From Oscillospiraceae bacterium (lineage in GTDB: Bacteria > Bacillota > Clostridia > Oscillospirales > Oscillospiraceae): a DNA stretch of 60,948 bases. A model generated the notes under the pieces. It saw only the letters and a list, made by a program, of their open reading frames with translations. It had not been told where the DNA came from and searched no databases. The stretch is from the NCBI GenBank assembly GCA_902791215.1, contig CADAUZ010000023.1:1-60948 (forward strand). The letters are read 5' to 3'. Below are positions 8,775 through 60,948 of this stretch, one piece after another (the stretch's first letter is position 1; each line of letters opens with the position of its first letter). Both the position numbers and the translations under genes were made by a program.

Positions 8775-10324
8775 TTCTTCGCCTCCTTTTTCTTCTCCAT
8801 ATCTTCCTTGACAGCCTTCGCCGCCGCGCGGCCGTTGGTGATCTGCGGGCCCATGCCGTCGCCAGACATGCCGTGGGCGCCGGCAAACTCCAGACCGTCG
8901 ATGAAGTGATCCTTGTCCTTCATCTGCAGTCTCGCCACCGCGTGGTCCTCCATGGAGTGGAGGTAGCCGTAGATATTGCCCTTCCACGCGCCCACGTAGT
9001 GGGAGACGGTCATGGGCGTGGTGACCTCGATCTCGGTGATGCGCTTGCGGAAGTCCACCTTCGTGATCTTGATGCACTCGTCGATCATCTCGCTGGCAAG
9101 ACGCCGCTTGAGATCGTGGTACTCCTCCTCCTTGACGCCCTCAAAGGGCTTGGAGGGAACCAGGGCCGTGATGGAGAGCTGGGTGTAGCCCTCGGGCAAA
9201 CCGGGGTTGGCGTAATTGAGGCATATCGTGGTGATGTAGTTGTAGGGCTCGGTGAGGTTGGAGTAGTTCTCCCAGATCTTGTTGGTGTCCATGGTGGAGC
9301 CGGAGAAGGTGGAGTAGTTGGTGATGCCGTTTTCCTCGGGCGTACCCTCAATGACCATGATGACGGACACGGGCACCACGGAGAGCTTGCGGTTGTTGAT
9401 CATCTTGATCGCGCCGACGGGCACCTCGCTCTTCGGCTCGATCATCTGGGAGTAGACCCTGTTGGGGTACGGGCCGGAGATGACGTAGTCGCAGTGGATC
9501 TCGTCGCCGCGGCGGGTGCGCACGCCATAGACCTTGCCGTCTTTGACCAGGATCTTCTCAACTTCCTGGTTGAACTCATACTGCGCGCCGTTTTCCTCGC
9601 ACTTGGTCTGGAGCTTCAGGCTCATCTCATGGCTGAAGCCGCGGCAGACGTAGGAGCCGGTGAAGTAGTCGGCCATCAGGAAGGCGTAGATGGTGAAGGG
9701 CAGATCGTCCATGCGGTTGCCGACGTAGATCCAGTACGGGGTCAGCATCTCGACGGCCTTCTTCGGCAGGTCGAAGGTGTTGATGACCTCGGTTGCGGTG
9801 TAGCCGACGGTCTTGACAAAGTCCGGGTGCTTTAAGAGCATCATGGGCTTGCTCATCGGGTGGGTGGACAGGTAGTTCATGCTGTCGTAGACACGGCGGC
9901 AGAGCAGCATCAGCTCATGCACCTTCTCATAGGTGCCGGGGCAGACCTCGTTGACCTCGCGGGCGACGGTGGTGTAGGTATCGTCGTAGTCGTGGTGGAG
10001 GATCTTGTCGATGCCGGAGTTCGGCAGCGCCACACGGTAGCACTCCTTGACCGGCAGCCAGTCGACCTTCACGCCCATGTCGTCAAAGAACTGGCCGACT
10101 TTGAGGCGCTTGCCCGGCTGGCCGATGGACATCATCTCATGCAGGGTGGCCTCGATCTCGAAGCCGTTGCGCACAAAGTCGGTGGCAAGGCCGCCGGGCA
10201 TGTTGTGCTTTTCAAGGATCAGGATGTCCTTGATGCCCCAGGCCTGCAGCTGCAAGCAGGCAGACATGCCCGCCAGCGCCCCGCCGATGATGACCACATC
10301 ATAATGGTCTTTGTAAAACTTCAT
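8771..10324 (-). CDS. FAD-dependent phytoene-desaturase/CrtI-like oxidoreductase
   Basis: The 517-residue protein opens with a Rossmann FAD motif (DVVIIGGALAGMSACLQL) and LEKHNMPGG, and ends with the CrtI-type C-terminal signature LEFAGAHGMSGDGMGPQITNG followed by a lysine-rich tail. There is no signal peptide or membrane segment. CrtI-like enzymes desaturate, isomerise or saturate polyene or lipid substrates; no carotenoid genes are nearby, so the substrate is unlikely to be phytoene. It lies downstream of a second FAD enzyme and is overlapped by the ferredoxin reductase gene. A role on an acyl chain supplied by the divergent ACP genes is an inference. Confidence 0.82.
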   Translation of the reverse strand: MKFYKDHYDVVIIGGALAGMSACLQLQAWGIKDILILEKHNMPGGLATDFVRNGFEIEATLHEMMSIGQPGKRLKVGQFFDDMGVKVDWLPVKECYRVALPNSGIDKILHHDYDDTYTTVAREVNEVCPGTYEKVHELMLLCRRVYDSMNYLSTHPMSKPMMLLKHPDFVKTVGYTATEVINTFDLPKKAVEMLTPYWIYVGNRMDDLPFTIYAFLMADYFTGSYVCRGFSHEMSLKLQTKCEENGAQYEFNQEVEKILVKDGKVYGVRTRRGDEIHCDYVISGPYPNRVYSQMIEPKSEVPVGAIKMINNRKLSVVPVSVIMVIEGTPEENGITNYSTFSGSTMDTNKIWENYSNLTEPYNYITTICLNYANPGLPEGYTQLSITALVPSKPFEGVKEEEYHDLKRRLASEMIDECIKITKVDFRKRITEIEVTTPMTVSHYVGAWKGNIYGYLHSMEDHAVARLQMKDKDHFIDGLEFAGAHGMSGDGMGPQITNGRAAAKAVKEDMEKKKEAKK

Positions 10325-10571: not shown

Positions 10572-11957
10572 TTAGAAGAATCTCTCGACGAGCTCGCGGG
10601 AGTACTCGGCAGTCTCGTCCATGTCGCCGAAGCTCATGACCTCGCCGGCATAGAAGGTGTCGTACTTGCCCTGCATGGCCTCGACCTTGTCGTACCAGCC
10701 GTCGGCATAGTCGGCGGAGAAGACATGGGGGAAGTAGTACACGGACCACTCGTTGATGACTTCCTCGGCGGGGTTGTGCATGGTCTTGAGGTCGTCCTGC
10801 ACCATCTGGCGGCAGGTCTCGTAGGGAATCTCGGCGCTGTTGCGGTGCTTGCGCAGGGCGTAGGTGGTGATGACCTGGTCGATCTCGTCTCTCCAGCGGC
10901 GGTAGTAGACCATCAGGTGGCCGAGCTTCTCGGGAACCATGTTGTCGAAGACATAGTAGGAGATCTCGGGGTGGTTCTCGGGCTTGGTGAGGAAAGCCTG
11001 CACATCGTAGCGCTCGTAGTCGATGCGGGAGAAGAGCTTCTTCTCGTCGTCACGGGCGTCGAAGTACTCGACCATGCCCTTCTGGCCGTCGGTGCGCTTG
11101 TTGGGAATGTAGAGGGGCGCGGTGACGATGATCTTGTCGTACTCCTCGACCGCACCGTTGACGGTGACGTAGACCTTGCCGTCGCGGCGCTCGACCTTCT
11201 CGATGTTGGAGTTGAGGCGGGCGGGGTTCTTGAGGTGGTCGTTGAGCTGCTCCCAGATATACTGGGTGCCGTTCTTCCAGGTCCAGAGGTTGACCTTGAC
11301 GAAGTTCATGGTGGTCTGGAAGTCCAGATACTTCAGCACGTAGGCCGCGGGGATCTCGTCAAAGTAGCCGTAGCCGAAGGAGGTGTAGGGTCCGATCCAC
11401 ACGTCCTGCACAAGGTCGACGCCGTTCTTGGCGCAGAACTCCTTGAAGGGCAGGGCCAGGTCCTTGAGGTTTGGGTTGATGCCCTGGACGCGCTCGCGGC
11501 CCGGGGTCACGGCATAGCCGTCGTAGCGGCCCTCGGCGACGCCGCGGTGGCCGTTGAGGTCATAGCCCTGGTACTTGGTCTCCAGCAGCTCACCGAACTT
11601 CCGGATCTGCCTTTTCATTCTGAGCAGGCGCGGGATCTTGAGGATGTTCTTCTTGGGCTCGAAGGGCTCGATCACGTCGCCCTTGGCGTTTTTGTAGTTG
11701 CGGTTGAGCTTCGGGCCGTCGTGGGTGATGCCGCAGAACTCCTCCACGTCGTGCACGGCGTAGTAGGAGGGCACGCCCATGATGGCGCCCATCTCGTAGC
11801 GGCGGCCCTTGTAGGTCGGCGACCAGCACTTGCCGCCCACGCGGTCAAGACGCTCGAGGATGGTGTAGTTGAAGTAACCCTTCTTTTCCAGGTACATGCC
11901 CGCGGACAGGCCCGCGGGGCCGCCGCCGATGATGCAGATGCGCGTATTCTTGTCCAT
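10572..11957 (-). CDS. FAD-dependent amine-oxidase/protoporphyrinogen-oxidase-like protein
   Basis: The product is about 461 residues and starts with an FAD Rossmann motif (RICIIGGGPAGLSAGMYL) and LERLDRVGGKCWSPTY, the GG-doublet of the flavin amine oxidase superfamily. The rest is rich in Tyr and Trp and ends in FYAGEVMSFGDMDETAEYSRELVERFF, which holds the GE.. FAD contact typical of the C-terminus. The start at 11957 is an ATG 5 bases after GGAGG; an upstream TTG in frame lacks a good site. It heads the leftward operon and diverges from the acyl-ligase operon. Substrate unknown; remodelling of a lipid or polyketide-like chain is an inference. Confidence 0.8.
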   Translation of the reverse strand: MDKNTRICIIGGGPAGLSAGMYLEKKGYFNYTILERLDRVGGKCWSPTYKGRRYEMGAIMGVPSYYAVHDVEEFCGITHDGPKLNRNYKNAKGDVIEPFEPKKNILKIPRLLRMKRQIRKFGELLETKYQGYDLNGHRGVAEGRYDGYAVTPGRERVQGINPNLKDLALPFKEFCAKNGVDLVQDVWIGPYTSFGYGYFDEIPAAYVLKYLDFQTTMNFVKVNLWTWKNGTQYIWEQLNDHLKNPARLNSNIEKVERRDGKVYVTVNGAVEEYDKIIVTAPLYIPNKRTDGQKGMVEYFDARDDEKKLFSRIDYERYDVQAFLTKPENHPEISYYVFDNMVPEKLGHLMVYYRRWRDEIDQVITTYALRKHRNSAEIPYETCRQMVQDDLKTMHNPAEEVINEWSVYYFPHVFSADYADGWYDKVEAMQGKYDTFYAGEVMSFGDMDETAEYSRELVERFF

Positions 11958-56692: not shown

Positions 56693-57505
56693 ATGATCCT
56701 GTATTTCAGCGCCACCGGCAACACAAAATTCATTGCGGAGGAGCTTGCGCGCAGGCTCGACGACGCCGTGCTGGATCTGCGCGGCAAAATCCGGGATCAC
56801 GATTACGCCCCTGTCCGCTCGGAAAAACCCTTCGTCATCTGCTCACCGGTGTATGTGTGTGAGCCGCCAGGCTTTCTGACCGAATATCTGCGCAAAACGC
56901 CGCTTGTCGGCAATCAGGACGCGTATTTTGTTTTCACCAGCGGCGGCTATTCGGGCATCAGCGCCTATCTGGCCCGCCGCCTTGCGCGAAAAAAGCAAAT
57001 GCGGTACCAGGGCAGCGCCGACTTCAAGATGCCGCGCAGCTATCTGATCAGCAGCGCCTACCCGCCGCTGGAGAAGGATGAGATCGAGGCGCGCATCCGC
57101 GGGTGTGCCGCAAAGCTCCCGGAGACGGCGGAAACGATCCGCCGCGGAGAAACGCTCAAATCCCGCCATATCTGGCTGTGGGAAAAGCTGGTCACGCTCC
57201 CCTTCACGCCGGTATGGGTGCGCCTGCGTCAGGGGACAAAGGACTTTTTTGTGACAGACGCCTGCATCTCCTGCGGCAAATGTGAGCGCGGCTGTCCATT
57301 GCGCGTGATCCGGATGGAGAACGGAAGACCGGTCTGGCAAACCGGGAGCTGTGCCCACTGCATGGCCTGTATCCAGAACTGTCCCGTTGGGGCGATCGAA
57401 TACGGCAAGCTGACGCAGGGCAAGGAGCGCTACCGCTTTGAAAAATTCCGTTATGTGCTCTCCGGCGGAAAGCCTGCCCCCGCGCCGCAGGAAACGAAGC
57501 CCTGA
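56693..57505 (+). CDS. EFR1-family flavodoxin fused to two 4Fe-4S clusters
   Basis: The 270-residue protein has an N-terminal flavodoxin-like domain (MILYFSATGNTKFIAEEL, FMN phosphate loop) and a C-terminal bacterial ferredoxin domain with CISCGKCERGC and CAHCMACIQNC motifs. It belongs to the EFR1 electron-carrier family of anaerobes. GAAGGAAGGA precedes the ATG. It lies upstream of the interrupted sigma gene with its own untranslated gap; the relation to sporulation is unclear. Confidence 0.92.
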   Translation: MILYFSATGNTKFIAEELARRLDDAVLDLRGKIRDHDYAPVRSEKPFVICSPVYVCEPPGFLTEYLRKTPLVGNQDAYFVFTSGGYSGISAYLARRLARKKQMRYQGSADFKMPRSYLISSAYPPLEKDEIEARIRGCAAKLPETAETIRRGETLKSRHIWLWEKLVTLPFTPVWVRLRQGTKDFFVTDACISCGKCERGCPLRVIRMENGRPVWQTGSCAHCMACIQNCPVGAIEYGKLTQGKERYRFEKFRYVLSGGKPAPAPQETKP

Positions 57506-57558
57506 TCCGCATCCTCCTTTTGACAAGCCTGCCTGCCGTGTTTCGACTTGCACTTTCT

Positions 57559-57588
57559 GTATCAAATTTCCCGGCGCGGGAAATACTA
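57559..57588 (+). promoter_or_regulatory. Forespore sigma-F/sigma-G-type promoter of the sigG-like gene
   Basis: The -10 region GGAAATACTA (57579-57588) fits the sigma-F consensus GGnnAnAnTw at every position. Fifteen bases upstream lies GTATC (57559-57563), four of five matches to the -35 consensus GyATA. B. subtilis sigG is itself transcribed by sigma-F and sigma-G RNA polymerase, so the site fits its gene. Confidence 0.75.
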
Positions 57589-57617
57589 ACACCACTCTTT
57601 CAAAAAGGAGTGGTGTT
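57588..57617 (+). promoter_or_regulatory. Leader hairpin covering the sigG ribosome binding site
   Basis: Perfect 10-base arms AACACCACTC (57588-57597) and GAGTGGTGTT (57608-57617) enclose a 10-base loop. The ribosome binding site AAGGAG (57605-57610) lies partly in the right arm, 12 bases before the ATG. It may limit translation or terminate transcription (T run after it). A hairpin in the B. subtilis sigG leader has been reported to restrain expression. Confidence 0.7.
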
Positions 57618-57621
57618 TTTC

Positions 57622-57951
57622 ATGCAGGGAAAGGTCGAGATCTGCGGGGTGAACACGGCGAAGCTGCCGGTGCTCAAAGCCGCCGAGACGCGGGCGCTGC
57701 TGGAAAAAGCCCGCAGCGGTGACCGGGAGGCCCGTCAGGCGCTCATTGCGGGAAACCTTCGCTTGGTGCTATCGGTGATCCAGAAATTTTCCGGCCGCGG
57801 TGAGAGCATGGACGATCTCTTTCAGGTCGGCTGCATCGGCCTCATCAAGGCTGTGGACTGCTTTGACCTGAGCCAGAATGTCCAGTTTTCCACCTATGGT
57901 GTTCCAGCGATTAACGGATGGCGAGAAGATGAAAAGAGGTTTTCACCATGA
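57622..57951 (+). pseudogene. sigG: RNA polymerase sporulation sigma factor sigma-G, 5' fragment interrupted by a mobile element
   Basis: The first 95 residues match SigG: KVEICGVNTAKLPVLKAAE, GNLRLVLSVIQKF, DDLFQVGCIGLIKAVDCFDLS and VQFSTYGVP, covering region 1.2-like sequence and most of region 2. At about codon 96 (near 57907) the expected MIIGEIRRYLRD is replaced by unrelated codons, and a stop follows at 57949-57951. Regions 3 and 4 are therefore missing and the product cannot bind -35 elements. The start at 57622 and the promoter/hairpin upstream are intact. The last bases overlap the next gene (ATGA). The break is most simply explained by insertion of the element that follows; the 3' half is not in the window. 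Confidence 0.85.
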
Positions 57952-58496
57952 CGCGAAAGCAGGCACTGGCTATGGCAGAGCAAGTCTTATCCGAGCGCGG
58001 GCAAGACGAAGCGGCAGCGATCCTACATAAGCTTTCCGGCGAGCTCCCCTTCTACAGTTGGTCAGAGGATGCGATCCGGGACGCGGTGGAGCAGTTCATC
58101 CTCGACCATGGGCGCGTCCCCACCGCCACCGATTTCAAAAAGCGGGGCCTTCCCCCGCACACGGTCATCAAGAAGCGCTTCGGCATCACCCTGCAGGAGT
58201 GGCTGCACCGGGATTACCCCGTCGTCAAGCCCTCCGAGGACGAAAAACGGACAAAGGCCACTGAGGCCTTTGTCCGGGATTATTTTCGTATTCAGCCCAA
58301 AAGCGCCGACGAGTTCAACGCCCGTCGCGCGCCCGGGACGCACTGCTGGTACACCGTCGCTGTCTACAACCACACCCGCAGCTGGCGGAATCTGCTGGCC
58401 AAGCTGGAGCTGCCGATCTACAACAACGTCGATGTCCCGCGCGTGAAGCCCGACCTCAAGGTCAGCGTGATCTCCGATACCGATTTTCGGGACTGA
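57948..58496 (+). CDS. Mobile-element protein with HNH-associated-repeat-like DNA-binding segments
   Basis: The 182-residue product has no signal or membrane helix. The segment FILDHGRVPTATDFKKRGLPPHTVIKKRFGITLQEWL (about residues 48-84) resembles the homing-endonuclease-associated repeat (GRxPT...FG..). A second stretch (TRSWRNLLAKLELP) is weakly similar. No HNH nuclease motif is seen. The start overlaps the stop of the sigma fragment (ATGA), so expression may be coupled to the sigG promoter. It is the first gene of the inserted element. The function is unknown; DNA binding is inferred. Confidence 0.6.
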   Translation: MTRKQALAMAEQVLSERGQDEAAAILHKLSGELPFYSWSEDAIRDAVEQFILDHGRVPTATDFKKRGLPPHTVIKKRFGITLQEWLHRDYPVVKPSEDEKRTKATEAFVRDYFRIQPKSADEFNARRAPGTHCWYTVAVYNHTRSWRNLLAKLELPIYNNVDVPRVKPDLKVSVISDTDFRD

Positions 58497-58510
58497 GGGG
58501 AGGTAAGAAC

Positions 58511-58756
58511 ATGAAACTGTTACTATCCTGCAAGTACAACATGGACACGGCCTGTGTGGAGCTGCGTTATTCCGACGGCAGCACTCTCGCTCTCGACTGC
58601 ATCGAGATCGAAAACCTGTATGGCAACAGCCCCGCTTACCGCACCGAGCTGGACTATCTGATCTACAACGATCCCCTGGCCTATGCCGACCTGATCCTGA
58701 ATGGGGATGTGGAGGCGTATCTGCGGACTGCAGCGCAAGAGCGGTATCTGGACTGA
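58511..58756 (+). CDS. DUF6061-like small protein
   Basis: The 81-residue acidic protein (CKYNMDTACVELRYSDGSTLALDCIEIEN, then DPLAYADLILNGDVEAYLRTAAQ) resembles small proteins common in integrative elements of gut Firmicutes. GGGGAGGTAAG precedes the ATG, and it lies 14 bp after the previous gene. Function unknown. After it a 503-bp stretch without genes holds a hairpin, tandem repeats and an inverted repeat. Confidence 0.7.
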   Translation: MKLLLSCKYNMDTACVELRYSDGSTLALDCIEIENLYGNSPAYRTELDYLIYNDPLAYADLILNGDVEAYLRTAAQERYLD

Positions 58757-58787
58757 AGCCAGCCAAACAAAGCTATAGTGTTTCATT

Positions 58788-58828
58788 AAAAACGGCTGTT
58801 TCACCAAATCGGTGAAATGGTCGTTTTT
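58788..58828 (+). terminator. Interrupted hairpin with A and T flanks
   Basis: AAAAACG (58788) and TTTCACC (58799) face GGTGAAA (58811) and CGTTTTT (58822), with a 4-base internal loop on each side. It lies about 30 bases after the DUF6061-like gene and is likely a bidirectional terminator. The 13-base word TGAATTTAGAGTC is repeated directly just after it (58847 and 58861 region). Confidence 0.7.
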
Positions 58829-58925
58829 AGTGAAATGGAGCTATACTGAATTTAGAGTCGCTGAATTTAGAGTCAGTGAAAATCTTCTGTTAACCGCCAA
58901 CACCACAACGCACAAGTTCAACACG

Positions 58926-59012
58926 CAGTGTGCGTTGGTGAAATGTTGAACGTTCAGTGTGCGTTGGTGAAACGTTGAATGTTCAGTGTGCGTTGGTGAA
59001 ACGTTGAACGTG
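58926..59012. repeat. Three tandem 29-bp repeats
   Basis: Copies at 58926-58954, 58955-58983 and 58984-59012 share the core CAGTGTGCGTTGGTGAAA and differ at a few positions near the end. A partial related segment (GTTCAACACG) precedes the first copy. They lie about 250 bases upstream of the AbiE pair. They could be protein-binding iterons, an element origin or part of an RNA. No reading frame crosses them. Confidence 0.85.
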
Positions 59013-59100
59013 CATTAACTTATTCCAACTTGCTAAAACTTGCTTTTAGCAGCAAAATAGTGATTTCTTTTAACGCTCCTTCCATTTTTAATCCGTCATA

Positions 59101-59159
59101 CAACTGCTCATACAAATGATTCTTCTTTAATATTTGTATGCGAGTTGTATGAGCAGTTG
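59101..59159. promoter_or_regulatory. Inverted repeat upstream of the AbiE operon
   Basis: Perfect 15-base arms CAACTGCTCATACAA (59101-59115) and TTGTATGAGCAGTTG (59145-59159), with an inner ATTTGTATG (59132-59140) that can also pair with the left arm. AbiEi antitoxins are known to bind inverted repeats at their own promoter, so this is a candidate operator. A possible promoter TTGATT (59212-59217), 17 bases, TAATAT (59235-59240) lies downstream of it. Confidence 0.65.
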
Positions 59160-59259
59160 TGGGAGGCCGATCACTCCAAATTTGCTTTTAAACTAGTTCG
59201 GAATAATTTGCTTGATTTTCTCCAATAATTGCAGTAATATTGCAATTGGTGGTGAAAAT

Positions 59260-59862
59260 ATGCTAAAAACTCATCTTGTCTTGATGGACGAACTGAAAAG
59301 CTACGTCAGCCCGGCAAAGAAGATTGAGCGAATGGTGAAGAGCGGCGAACTGACCCGAGTTGTGCGCGGGTTGTATGAGACCGATCCACATACTCCAGGA
59401 CACCTTCTTGCAGCGAGCATCTATGGTCCGTCCTATCTGTCTTTTGAATATGCTCTTGCTCAACACGGCTTGATTCCGGAGGCAGTCCATCAATTTACTT
59501 CTGCAACTTTTGATAAAAAGCGGGCTAAGCAGTTTGAAACGCCGTTCGGAGTTTTCAGCTATCGTGATATACCATATAAAGCTTTTTCTTACGGCATCCT
59601 GCCGCTGATCGAAAATGGATACAGCTATCGCTTGGCCACACCGGAAAAGGCAGTCTGTGATGAGTTGTATAAGATTTCGCCCTGTGCAAATCGCTCGGAA
59701 CTGGAACAATTGCTGTTTGAAAACCTGCGAATCGACCGCCAGGCGTTCCTGGAGCTCGACCTCGCAGAAATGGAGCAGCTTGCGGCGCTGTACCAGACAA
59801 AGAACCATAAGCTACTTCGATCCTGGATCAGAAAGGAGATCCGACATGCAACAGATACTTGA
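59260..59862 (+). CDS. abiEi: AbiEi-like type IV antitoxin/transcriptional regulator
   Basis: The 200-residue protein has an N-terminal winged helix (SPAKKIERMVKSGELTRVVRGLYETD) and the AbiEi body (LLAASIYGPSYLSFEYALAQHGLIPE, then YGILPLIENGYSYRLATPEKAVCDELY). Such proteins repress the abiE promoter and counter the AbiEii toxin. The start is the ATG at 59260 with GGTGGTG before it. It overlaps the toxin gene by 17 bases. Base composition is more AT-rich than the chromosomal genes, supporting acquisition. Confidence 0.9.
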   Translation: MLKTHLVLMDELKSYVSPAKKIERMVKSGELTRVVRGLYETDPHTPGHLLAASIYGPSYLSFEYALAQHGLIPEAVHQFTSATFDKKRAKQFETPFGVFSYRDIPYKAFSYGILPLIENGYSYRLATPEKAVCDELYKISPCANRSELEQLLFENLRIDRQAFLELDLAEMEQLAALYQTKNHKLLRSWIRKEIRHATDT

Positions 59863-60709
59863 GCAGATGCTGCGCTCTTACGAGCCGCAGACTTCGACTG
59901 ACAAGAAAAACGCAATCAAGGAGATCATTCAGGAAATCGTATTGTGCGGACTGAGCCGTGCAGGATTCTTTAAGCATGCGGCGTTCTATGGCGGAACGGC
60001 GCTGCGGATCTTCTACGGGCTGGATCGCTTCTCCGAAGATTTGGACTTTTCCCTAATGGCTCCAGAGAGCTTTGATCTTAGCGAATATCTGCCTGCGCTG
60101 GAGAAGGAAATCCGCTCCTACGGTCTCAATTTCAAGGCGGAGGAACGGGAAAAAACGGTGGACTCTGCTGTCCAATCCGCCTTTCTGAAAGGAAACACGA
60201 AGGAGCACATCCTTCTTTTCTATGCAGATGATCGGCTTGCACGATCCATCGCGCCGAACGAGCTGATCAAGGTCAAGTTTGAAATCGACACAAATCCGCC
60301 ACCCTTTGCCGGCTTTGAACATAGATATCGGTTGCTGCCCAGCCCATATGAGATATGCCTTTATGATCAGCCCTCCCTCTTTGCCGGAAAAGTACATGCC
60401 GTTCTCTGCCGGGCATGGAAAAATCGCATCAAAGGCCGCGATCTCTACGACTATGTGTTCTACCTTTCCATGAATACGCCGGTCAATCTGCAGCATCTGG
60501 AAGCACGTCTCCGGCAGTCCGAATTTCTTGAAACGGAGGCACCGATGGATATTGACCAGCTGAAAGGCCTGCTCCGAGCTCGTTTTGCAACAATTGACTA
60601 CGATCAAGCTAAGCAGGACGTCCTGCCGTTTATTAAGGATCCCAGCAAGCTCACCGTATGGAGCAAGGACTTTTTTGGTCAAATCACAGAAGGCCTGATG
60701 ACAATATAG
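59846..60709 (+). CDS. abiEii: AbiEii-like nucleotidyltransferase toxin
   Basis: The 287-residue protein has the nucleotidyltransferase motif GGTALRIFYGLDRFSEDLDFSL at residues 49-70 with catalytic Asp65 and Asp67, then KVKFEIDTNPP and the later FAGKVHAVLCRAWKNRIKGRDLYDYVFYLS segment, as in DUF1814/AbiEii enzymes. AbiEii halts growth and gives abortive infection against phage; relatives transfer nucleotides to tRNA. AAAGGAGA precedes the ATG inside the end of the antitoxin gene. All key residues are present. Confidence 0.92.
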   Translation: MQQILEQMLRSYEPQTSTDKKNAIKEIIQEIVLCGLSRAGFFKHAAFYGGTALRIFYGLDRFSEDLDFSLMAPESFDLSEYLPALEKEIRSYGLNFKAEEREKTVDSAVQSAFLKGNTKEHILLFYADDRLARSIAPNELIKVKFEIDTNPPPFAGFEHRYRLLPSPYEICLYDQPSLFAGKVHAVLCRAWKNRIKGRDLYDYVFYLSMNTPVNLQHLEARLRQSEFLETEAPMDIDQLKGLLRARFATIDYDQAKQDVLPFIKDPSKLTVWSKDFFGQITEGLMTI

Positions 60710-60846
60710 CCCCAGCGAATCAAGCCTTCGTGCTAATTCTGATAAAATTCAACCGGGGATCACTTGCAATGCCACAATCGTAAGCGCTCAATAACCACCC
60801 GTGAACAGCAGAACACCCCAGCTCCTTTTTGTCGTGTGTTTTCTAA

Positions 60847-60948
60847 CTATATTGGGTCAATCACTTTTTCTGTGGGATGCCGGTAAAGGCATCGAGCAAA
60901 TGAATTGAATAAAGAAGAGCCATCCGCTAAGATGGGGTACTGTCTTCC
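60847..60948 (-). CDS. Possible 3' end of a gene entering from outside the window
   Basis: On the minus strand a frame is open for 33 codons from the window end to a TAG at 60849-60847, reading YPILADGSSLFNSFARCLYR and ending DPI. The composition looks protein-like, but it is too short to name. It would converge on the AbiE pair. The bases between 60710 and 60846 show no gene or clear terminator. Confidence 0.3.
   Translation of the reverse strand, partial: GRQYPILADGSSLFNSFARCLYRHPTEKVIDPI

Follow-up and report, generated by a model that had tools for sequence, protein, structure and literature searches.

The sporulation sigma-factor gene sigG of this Oscillospiraceae bacterium is split by the site-specific insertion of an element that encodes a large serine recombinase. 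We consider it probable that the insertion is reversible, and that recombination between attL and attR by the element's own recombinase would rejoin sigG in sporulating cells.

The split gene and its intervening element

The window, i.e. the whole stretch of DNA that was analysed (60,948 nucleotides), is contig C23 of a 3.19 Mb genome in 67 contigs with 95% completeness. Its right end is the contig end and lies inside the element that splits sigG after codon 95 (Table 1). The initial annotation had described the promoter, the leader and the first 95 codons of sigG as intact, and all of them are present, as seen from the promoter pattern, the leader hairpin and the TIGR02850 and NF006071 matches. 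The promoter pattern, built on what we take to be the sigmaF/sigmaG consensus, is seen at all 15 split loci and at 45 of 50 whole ones, with 0.04 and 0.18 expected from shuffles. A weaker hairpin at the ribosome-binding site has been described for sigG of Bacillus subtilis, where the developing spore transcribes the gene with sigmaF and sigmaG (PMC5942855). The SigG homology stops at the core, GTT-CC. After codon 95 the reading frame adds 14 foreign codons and ends with a stop at 57951, which overlaps the next ATG at 57948. The break in homology and the mobile-DNA genes behind it had also been annotated initially; these genes are found to encode an HNH_repeat-like protein (named HRP here), a DUF6061 protein and AbiEi/AbiEii.

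Table 1. Features of the split sigG locus and of the intervening element (window positions unless contig C28 is named).
Feature	Position	Strand	Evidence or remark
sigmaF/sigmaG-type promoter pattern of sigG, GTATC-N15-GGAAATACT	57559..57587	+	pattern match
Leader hairpin over the sigG ribosome-binding site	57588..57617	+	13 bp stem, -17.3 kcal/mol, z -5.17 against 200 shuffles
sigG 5' half, codons 1-95	57622..57906	+	TIGR02850 positions 2-97, 152 bits, E 2.8e-44; NF006071, 158 bits
attL core GTTCC	57901..57905	.	junction sequences; common to attR, C28:11636-11640
Element-side arm of attL, AGCGATTAACGGATGG	57906..57921	.	inverted partner of the attR arm CCATCCGATATTC
Window part of the sigG-intervening element	57906..60948	.	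runs off the contig end; right part on C28:1-12133
HRP, left-end gene, 182 aa	57948..58496	+	ATGA overlap with the stop of truncated sigG; weak HNH_repeat match
DUF6061 protein, cargo	58511..58756	+	PF19537, 121.5 bits
AbiEi, cargo	59260..59862	+	PADLOC, 220 bits, scanned from TTG 59212; ATG start at 59260 picked by eye
AbiEii, cargo	59846..60709	+	PADLOC AbiEii, 361 bits
Right element part	C28:1-12133		sigma-like gene, DarTG, actin-like protein, MobV relaxase, small protein, serine recombinase, attR, sigG 3' half

The 3' half of sigG is found on contig C28 of the same genome, where it starts at 11636 (profile search; TIGR02850 79-253, 242 bits). Directly before it lies the gene of the large serine recombinase (C28:10015-11586), whose Resolvase, Recombinase and zinc-ribbon domains (PF00239, PF07508, PF13408) all score above cut-off. 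The left junction reads GTTCC|AGCGATTAACGGATGG and the right junction CCATCCGATATTC|GTTCC|CATGATTGC, with GTTCC in both. The element-side arms are inverted repeats, as the attP of a serine integrase would have. The two junctions imply an attP of the form CCATCC...GGATGG, and the attB in the host gene corresponds to the whole sigG of relatives. The profile search of this 95%-complete genome detected no complete sigG; the best whole-length relative of the sigG profile is a sigF-like gene (185 bits). The split is thus real and not a chance arrangement, since the missing half lies in the same genome behind a serine recombinase and carries the same 5-base core. The remaining SigG codons, a recombinase gene and a short direct repeat near 57900-57915, all of which the initial annotation had pointed to, are accounted for by these findings. 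Its alternatives of a dead duplicate or a simple deletion are not borne out in this genome, with the 3' half present and no second complete sigG found, and the likeness that it had drawn to the skin element stands in architecture.

For the length of the element we can give a lower bound of 3.0 kb on C23 plus 11.6 kb on C28, because the halves lie on two contigs, the middle is unassembled and other pieces may lie between. Both partner genes are present for AbiE in the window, of which we take AbiEi to be the antitoxin and AbiEii the toxin half of the defence system, and for DarTG on C28, where DarT scores below the NCBIfam cut-off and above that of Pfam. The C28 part also holds a regulator gene. 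A sigma-70-like gene on its minus strand (C28:426-1139), distantly related to SigK/SigE (52-53 bits), lies beside an HTH regulator. A MobV relaxase (above cut-off) and the integrase are found in the element, the middle of which is unassembled. HRP matches HNH_repeat (homing endonuclease associated repeat) with 24.1 bits, just below the Pfam cut-off of 26. Its model is all-helical (pLDDT 78, pTM 0.43), with weak HTH-like matches.

Recurrence of the insertion in related genomes

Each related species was represented by one genome in the comparison. Among the matches listed for the own genus, with G101 left aside, sigG is whole in 50 of 101 genomes, split in 19, broken by contig ends in 3 (G025, G030 and G050, kept as a separate class) and absent in 29; 5' halves were sought a second time in 21 genomes only. 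Whole genes score 374-416 bits. In 18 of the 19 split genomes the 3' half is found at the core; for the other one, G019, the left junction alone is seen. We could read 18 right and 15 left ends, and the insertion site and core are identical in all except G057. Thus GTTCC is present at 14 left and 17 right junctions, with the reversed element of G057 set apart. This 17 kb element has the opposite orientation and a recombinase that is 68% identical. In forward elements of the genus the attL arm AGCGATTAACGGATGG is kept with few changes. Sizes vary from about 22.6 kb for the whole element of G018 to about 3.8 kb in the named record L091, where a type IV pilin-like protein (8781-9422; named by eye) is the only evident cargo of a minimal element.

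Recombinase profile matches at E 1e-80 occur in 15 of 102 genomes, all of them split, and in none of the 50 with a whole gene. In the four split genomes with no match (G005, G019, G056, G060) the contigs end near the junction. HRP is found in 17 of the 102 genomes, 15 split and two with whole sigG and partial copies (G033:C14:15343-15705 and G038:C107:35726-35872), which are possibly traces of past insertions. Among the rows listed for the own genus and for the sister genus described below, no genome has a whole sigG together with a 3' half.

A scan of named genomes for two short peptides returned 23 recombinase loci, 37-99% identical and all at sigG. In 22 of them sigG lies inside the fetched locus; for L081 the 5' half is about 11 kb along the contig (apparently C76 of G078). 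These records are MAGs of Oscillospiraceae, Ruminococcaceae and other Clostridia, and isolate names often refer to rumen or hindgut. Reversed elements are seen in G057/L087, L088, L090, G439, G476 and G485, of which L090 and G439 look like the same genome. In G050 (L037, L043) the contig with the 3' half stops exactly at CGTTCC, where attR and attB diverge, as if empty and filled sites were both in the sample. In G031 (L041) the recombinase gene is apparently frameshifted near the C terminus and the 3' half of sigG is intact; an assembly error or a decaying element is possible.

Across the order, the recombinase family was found at E 1e-80 in 23 of 394 genomes, with at most three candidates scored per genome. 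The matches lie at sigG in 16 of these 23, within 1.5 kb in 15 and at 2.8 kb in G102; no sigG half was seen beside the recombinase in the other 7 within the fetched DNA. Recombinases located at sigG are spread over several families and include ones near 32% identity. With 16 of 23 matches at sigG, insertion into this gene has happened repeatedly and over a wide section of the recombinase family. In G437, a single-contig genome of 4.0 Mb, a related recombinase (G437:C1:1745963-1747276, L190) lies directly before a sigG 3' half, and the 5' half was not found within nearly 60 kb fetched upstream.

Such recurrence has to be weighed against the view that sigG is a mere conserved landing site, with excision rare and linked to transfer, so that only spontaneous excisants sporulate. 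We regard this as unlikely, with several observations in its favour. Elements move horizontally within the own genus: between G073 and G077 the recombinase dS is 0.15 and the sigG dS 0.60. Insertions occur in both orientations, and our element carries a relaxase and an actin-like gene. A phage-like contig (L108, IMGVR_UViG_3300032167_000130), which encodes ribonucleotide reductase, thymidylate synthase and guanylate kinase, has at its end an attR-like junction with the first codons of the sigG 3' half, next to a recombinase that is 60% identical. Furthermore, purifying selection on sigG would also arise if excisants did all the sporulating. The regular place of HRP and the retention of the element in the sister genus, both described below, speak against it.

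A second view, that the insertions are permanent knock-outs and their carriers recent non-sporulating dead ends, seems quite improbable to us. It would suit the scattered distribution of the split state, for which a tree of 73 rows (68 genus and 5 outgroup rows) requires 13 changes or more, with 2 of 500 shuffles as low. It would also suit the lack of sigG in 29 of the 101 genus genomes among the matches listed, and the result that no excised form was found, as the pattern used for the circle junction matched none of 102 genomes and nothing in IMG/VR. Against it, no stop is found behind the core in any of the 18 own-genus 3' halves; two TGA codons reported in G060 sit on the element side of the core. 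Of the split genomes 16 of 19 have kept SASP genes, as have 45 of 50 whole ones, versus 6 of 29 with no sigG. In the own genome a sigE-type gene scores above its curated cut-off and a sigK-type gene above one of its two; genes resembling sigF and sigH are present below theirs. The median pairwise dN/dS in the own genus is similar for split 3' halves (0.185, 128 pairs) and for whole genes (0.192, 872 pairs). Since elements jump between species and the split state is scattered, this selection test leaves room for recent dead-end insertions.

A probably ancestral split and an inversion in a sister genus

Stronger constraints come from genus g4 of the same family, in which 9 of 20 species have a whole and 11 a split sigG. 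Eight of the split species (group A) share the order sigG5'-[cargo]-recombinase-sigG3' with the same neighbours. In seven of the eight the cargo includes an alcohol dehydrogenase together with an aldehyde ferredoxin oxidoreductase, and G508 has the dehydrogenase alone. These elements (L192, L194, L241-L246) span roughly 3-6.4 kb, with metabolic cargo in which the alcohol dehydrogenase is of the iron type by Pfam; further cargo of G315 was named by eye and is presumably ferredoxin, a MoaD-like and a ThiF-like protein. The remaining three species (group B; G396, G509, G517 = L240, L239, L238) have the order sigG5'(-)-MocR(+)-recombinase(+)-sigG3'(+).

On a tree rooted with four whole-sigG species, the 11 split species form one group on a 100/100 branch; these four of the nine whole-sigG species were also the ones taken into the dN/dS comparison. 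The recombinase tree separates the same groups A and B, with some disagreement inside A. Median synonymous distances within group A are 0.43 for the recombinase, 0.46 for the dehydrogenase and 0.36 for the oxidoreductase, compared with 0.58 and 0.43 for chromosomal neighbours and 0.50 and 0.42 for sigG. Given these trees, and element distances that resemble those of the neighbours, the insertion is best read as inherited from the common ancestor. Such vertical retention through 11 species argues against a mere landing site, as does the one g4 element with ORFs listed, in which metabolic cargo is present and no mobility gene other than the recombinase was recognised.

Both halves of the split gene are strongly constrained. 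Over 55 pairs the median dN/dS is 0.035 for the 5' half and 0.047 for the 3' half, with no stop in 11 species. For comparison, it is 0.18 for the recombinase over all 11 species (0.13 within group A), 0.10 and 0.135 for neighbours, and 0.036 and 0.104 for pairs of whole sigG (6 pairs). The att arms are kept as well: the right arm TTTCCC is present in 11 of 11, and the left arm is TGGGGAAA in 8 and GTGGAAA in 3, with variable bases between arm and core. SASP genes are found in all 20 species and hence in all 11 with split sigG. A gene that lies functionless in two pieces should not show this combination of dN/dS, att arms and SASP retention. A permanent block of sporulation is therefore disfavoured, as the split goes back to the common ancestor of 11 species. 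We find it likely that split sigG is reversibly used and rejoined by recombination, and g4 supports this best, with a long-standing split, purifying selection on the halves, retained att arms and remaining spore genes. From the long-term purifying selection and the conserved arms, we infer that excision is regulated.

Purifying selection on both halves while split would also be expected if each were made as its own protein and the two then formed a single sigma factor without any recombination, in the manner of SigO/RsoA, a two-part sigma factor of Bacillus subtilis. The g4 junction even supplies an ATG to the 3' half just behind the recombinase gene. To us such an assembly seems highly improbable. 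The att arms and the recombinase are conserved too, no ribosome-binding site is seen before the 3' half, and in L092-L095 a gap of 1.7-1.9 kb separates the recombinase from the 3' half.

Group B differs from group A by an inversion of the sigG 5' half, its promoter and MocR. The order in group A is HD, MocR, sigG5', where the HD-domain gene, presumably such by our assignment by eye, is seen in three of the eight species (G186, G508, G513). In group B attL keeps its arm, now beside the HD gene and pointing against attR. With att sites inverted in this way, recombination would flip the DNA between them (about 3.7 kb in G396) and yield a whole sigG with no loss. This arrangement is a possible DNA-inversion switch for sigG. 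The flipped state was not found; in the nine whole-sigG species of g4 the recombinase is absent from the 3-6.6 kb upstream of MocR.

Candidate trigger and comparison with known systems

HRP is the first evident gene in 14 forward own-genus elements with the left end seen; the same holds for L091 and for the genomes of L086, L092 and L096. In 13 of 18 elements its start follows the core by 41-44 nt, and in G036, G059 and G077 by 92-206 nt; two of the 18 (G017 and the L096 genome) gave no start position. This mostly fixed place directly behind the sigG promoter is not what a mere landing site would lead to. From the close placement, and with no sigma70-type promoter found in window positions 57500-58000, transcription of HRP in the integrated state should come from the sigG promoter. 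Position and conservation make HRP a plausible recombination directionality factor, with no fold or sequence match in support from the family and structure searches. A small conserved protein encoded before the recombinase gene is a second candidate. In SPbeta and in the skin element of C. difficile, the recombinase is already there at an early stage, and the time of excision is set by another small protein, which the mother cell makes (PMC4191935, PMC5025042). HRP is not placed behind the sigG promoter in reversed elements, and none was recognised in G291 or among the g4 elements. The reversed and the g4 elements must use another trigger.

The following mechanism can be proposed. The dedicated large serine recombinase would insert the element at one fixed site of sigG, codon 95. 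Activity of the sigG promoter in the forespore would set off rejoining: the promoter would make HRP as directionality factor, and the developmental signal would thereby trip the switch that serves it. Excision of the circle would part HRP from the sigG promoter, so that the recombinase alone, favouring insertion, could reinsert the element after germination. In the three group B species the same reaction would act on inverted att sites and flip the DNA with nothing lost. Both the forespore timing and the trigger by HRP are plausible proposals. Extended to Oscillospiraceae and relatives, the picture becomes more tentative and somewhat less likely than not: the inherited forespore genome would be rearranged by programme, with sigG rebuilt when its own promoter makes the excision factor, the element returning after germination, and inversion in the place of excision in the three-species clade.

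A close parallel is the skin element in sigK of B. subtilis and C. difficile, where a sporulation sigma-factor gene is likewise split by a serine-recombinase element. In C. difficile a recombinase and a directionality factor rejoin sigK (PMC5025042). Unlike sigK, sigG acts in the forespore and not in the mother cell. Furthermore, related recombinases insert at sigG recurrently across an order, and in contrast to skin, excision at sigG is predicted from sequence. As in SPbeta, which splits spsM (SprA/SprB), an accessory gene adjoins one half of the split gene (PMC4191935). The SPbeta recombinase is expressed in growth and SprB is induced in sporulation; excision is specific to the mother cell, and the spore genome thus retains the prophage (PMC4191935). 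At 58 aa SprB is shorter than HRP (182 aa), for which transcription from the promoter of the host gene is predicted. The gin element in gerE of Bacillus cereus (GirC/GirX) resembles our element as a non-phage element with a serine recombinase and an accessory factor, and its cargo is a restriction-modification system (PMC5595907). It differs in that gerE is a mother-cell gene and in having three recombinases and a 9-base core (PMC5595907).

The known split targets sigK, spsM, spoVFB, spoVR and gerE are mother-cell genes in the portions of the sources at hand (PMC4191935 and PMC5595907 among them). Another named target of intervening elements in these portions is yabG. The compartment of yabG is again the mother cell. 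The usual explanation for intervening elements in sporulation genes is that the mother cell leaves no descendants, so that cutting its genome is costless. A split forespore sigma factor breaks this rule and needs reinsertion or inversion. For sigG a rearrangement confined to the mother cell is not expected, since B. subtilis sigG is transcribed in the developing spore (PMC5942855). We recognised no published account of a split sigG in the accessible parts of the literature searched. If our reading is true, the formation of transmissible spores in some gut and rumen bacteria would hinge on a recombination event, and a genome could wrongly be called non-sporulating from a sigG that looks incomplete. 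Defence genes or metabolic operons would then persist by residing inside an essential developmental gene. The sigG element also offers a testable system for the coupling of a recombinase to cell fate.

Two further systems lie outside the intervening elements of sporulation genes. The comK gene of Listeria differs from sigG in not being a sporulation gene, and its prophage reintegrates in a lineage that lives on. As proposed for sigG, excision of this prophage (active lysogeny) rebuilds the host gene, here outside sporulation (PMC4191935). The RecV flagellar switch of C. difficile is similar to the group B arrangement, as a recombinase inverts DNA and a group of genes is switched on or off (PMC7446863). 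Unlike the RecV switch, the inverted segment of group B would restore a sigma-factor coding sequence, and it carries the recombinase itself.
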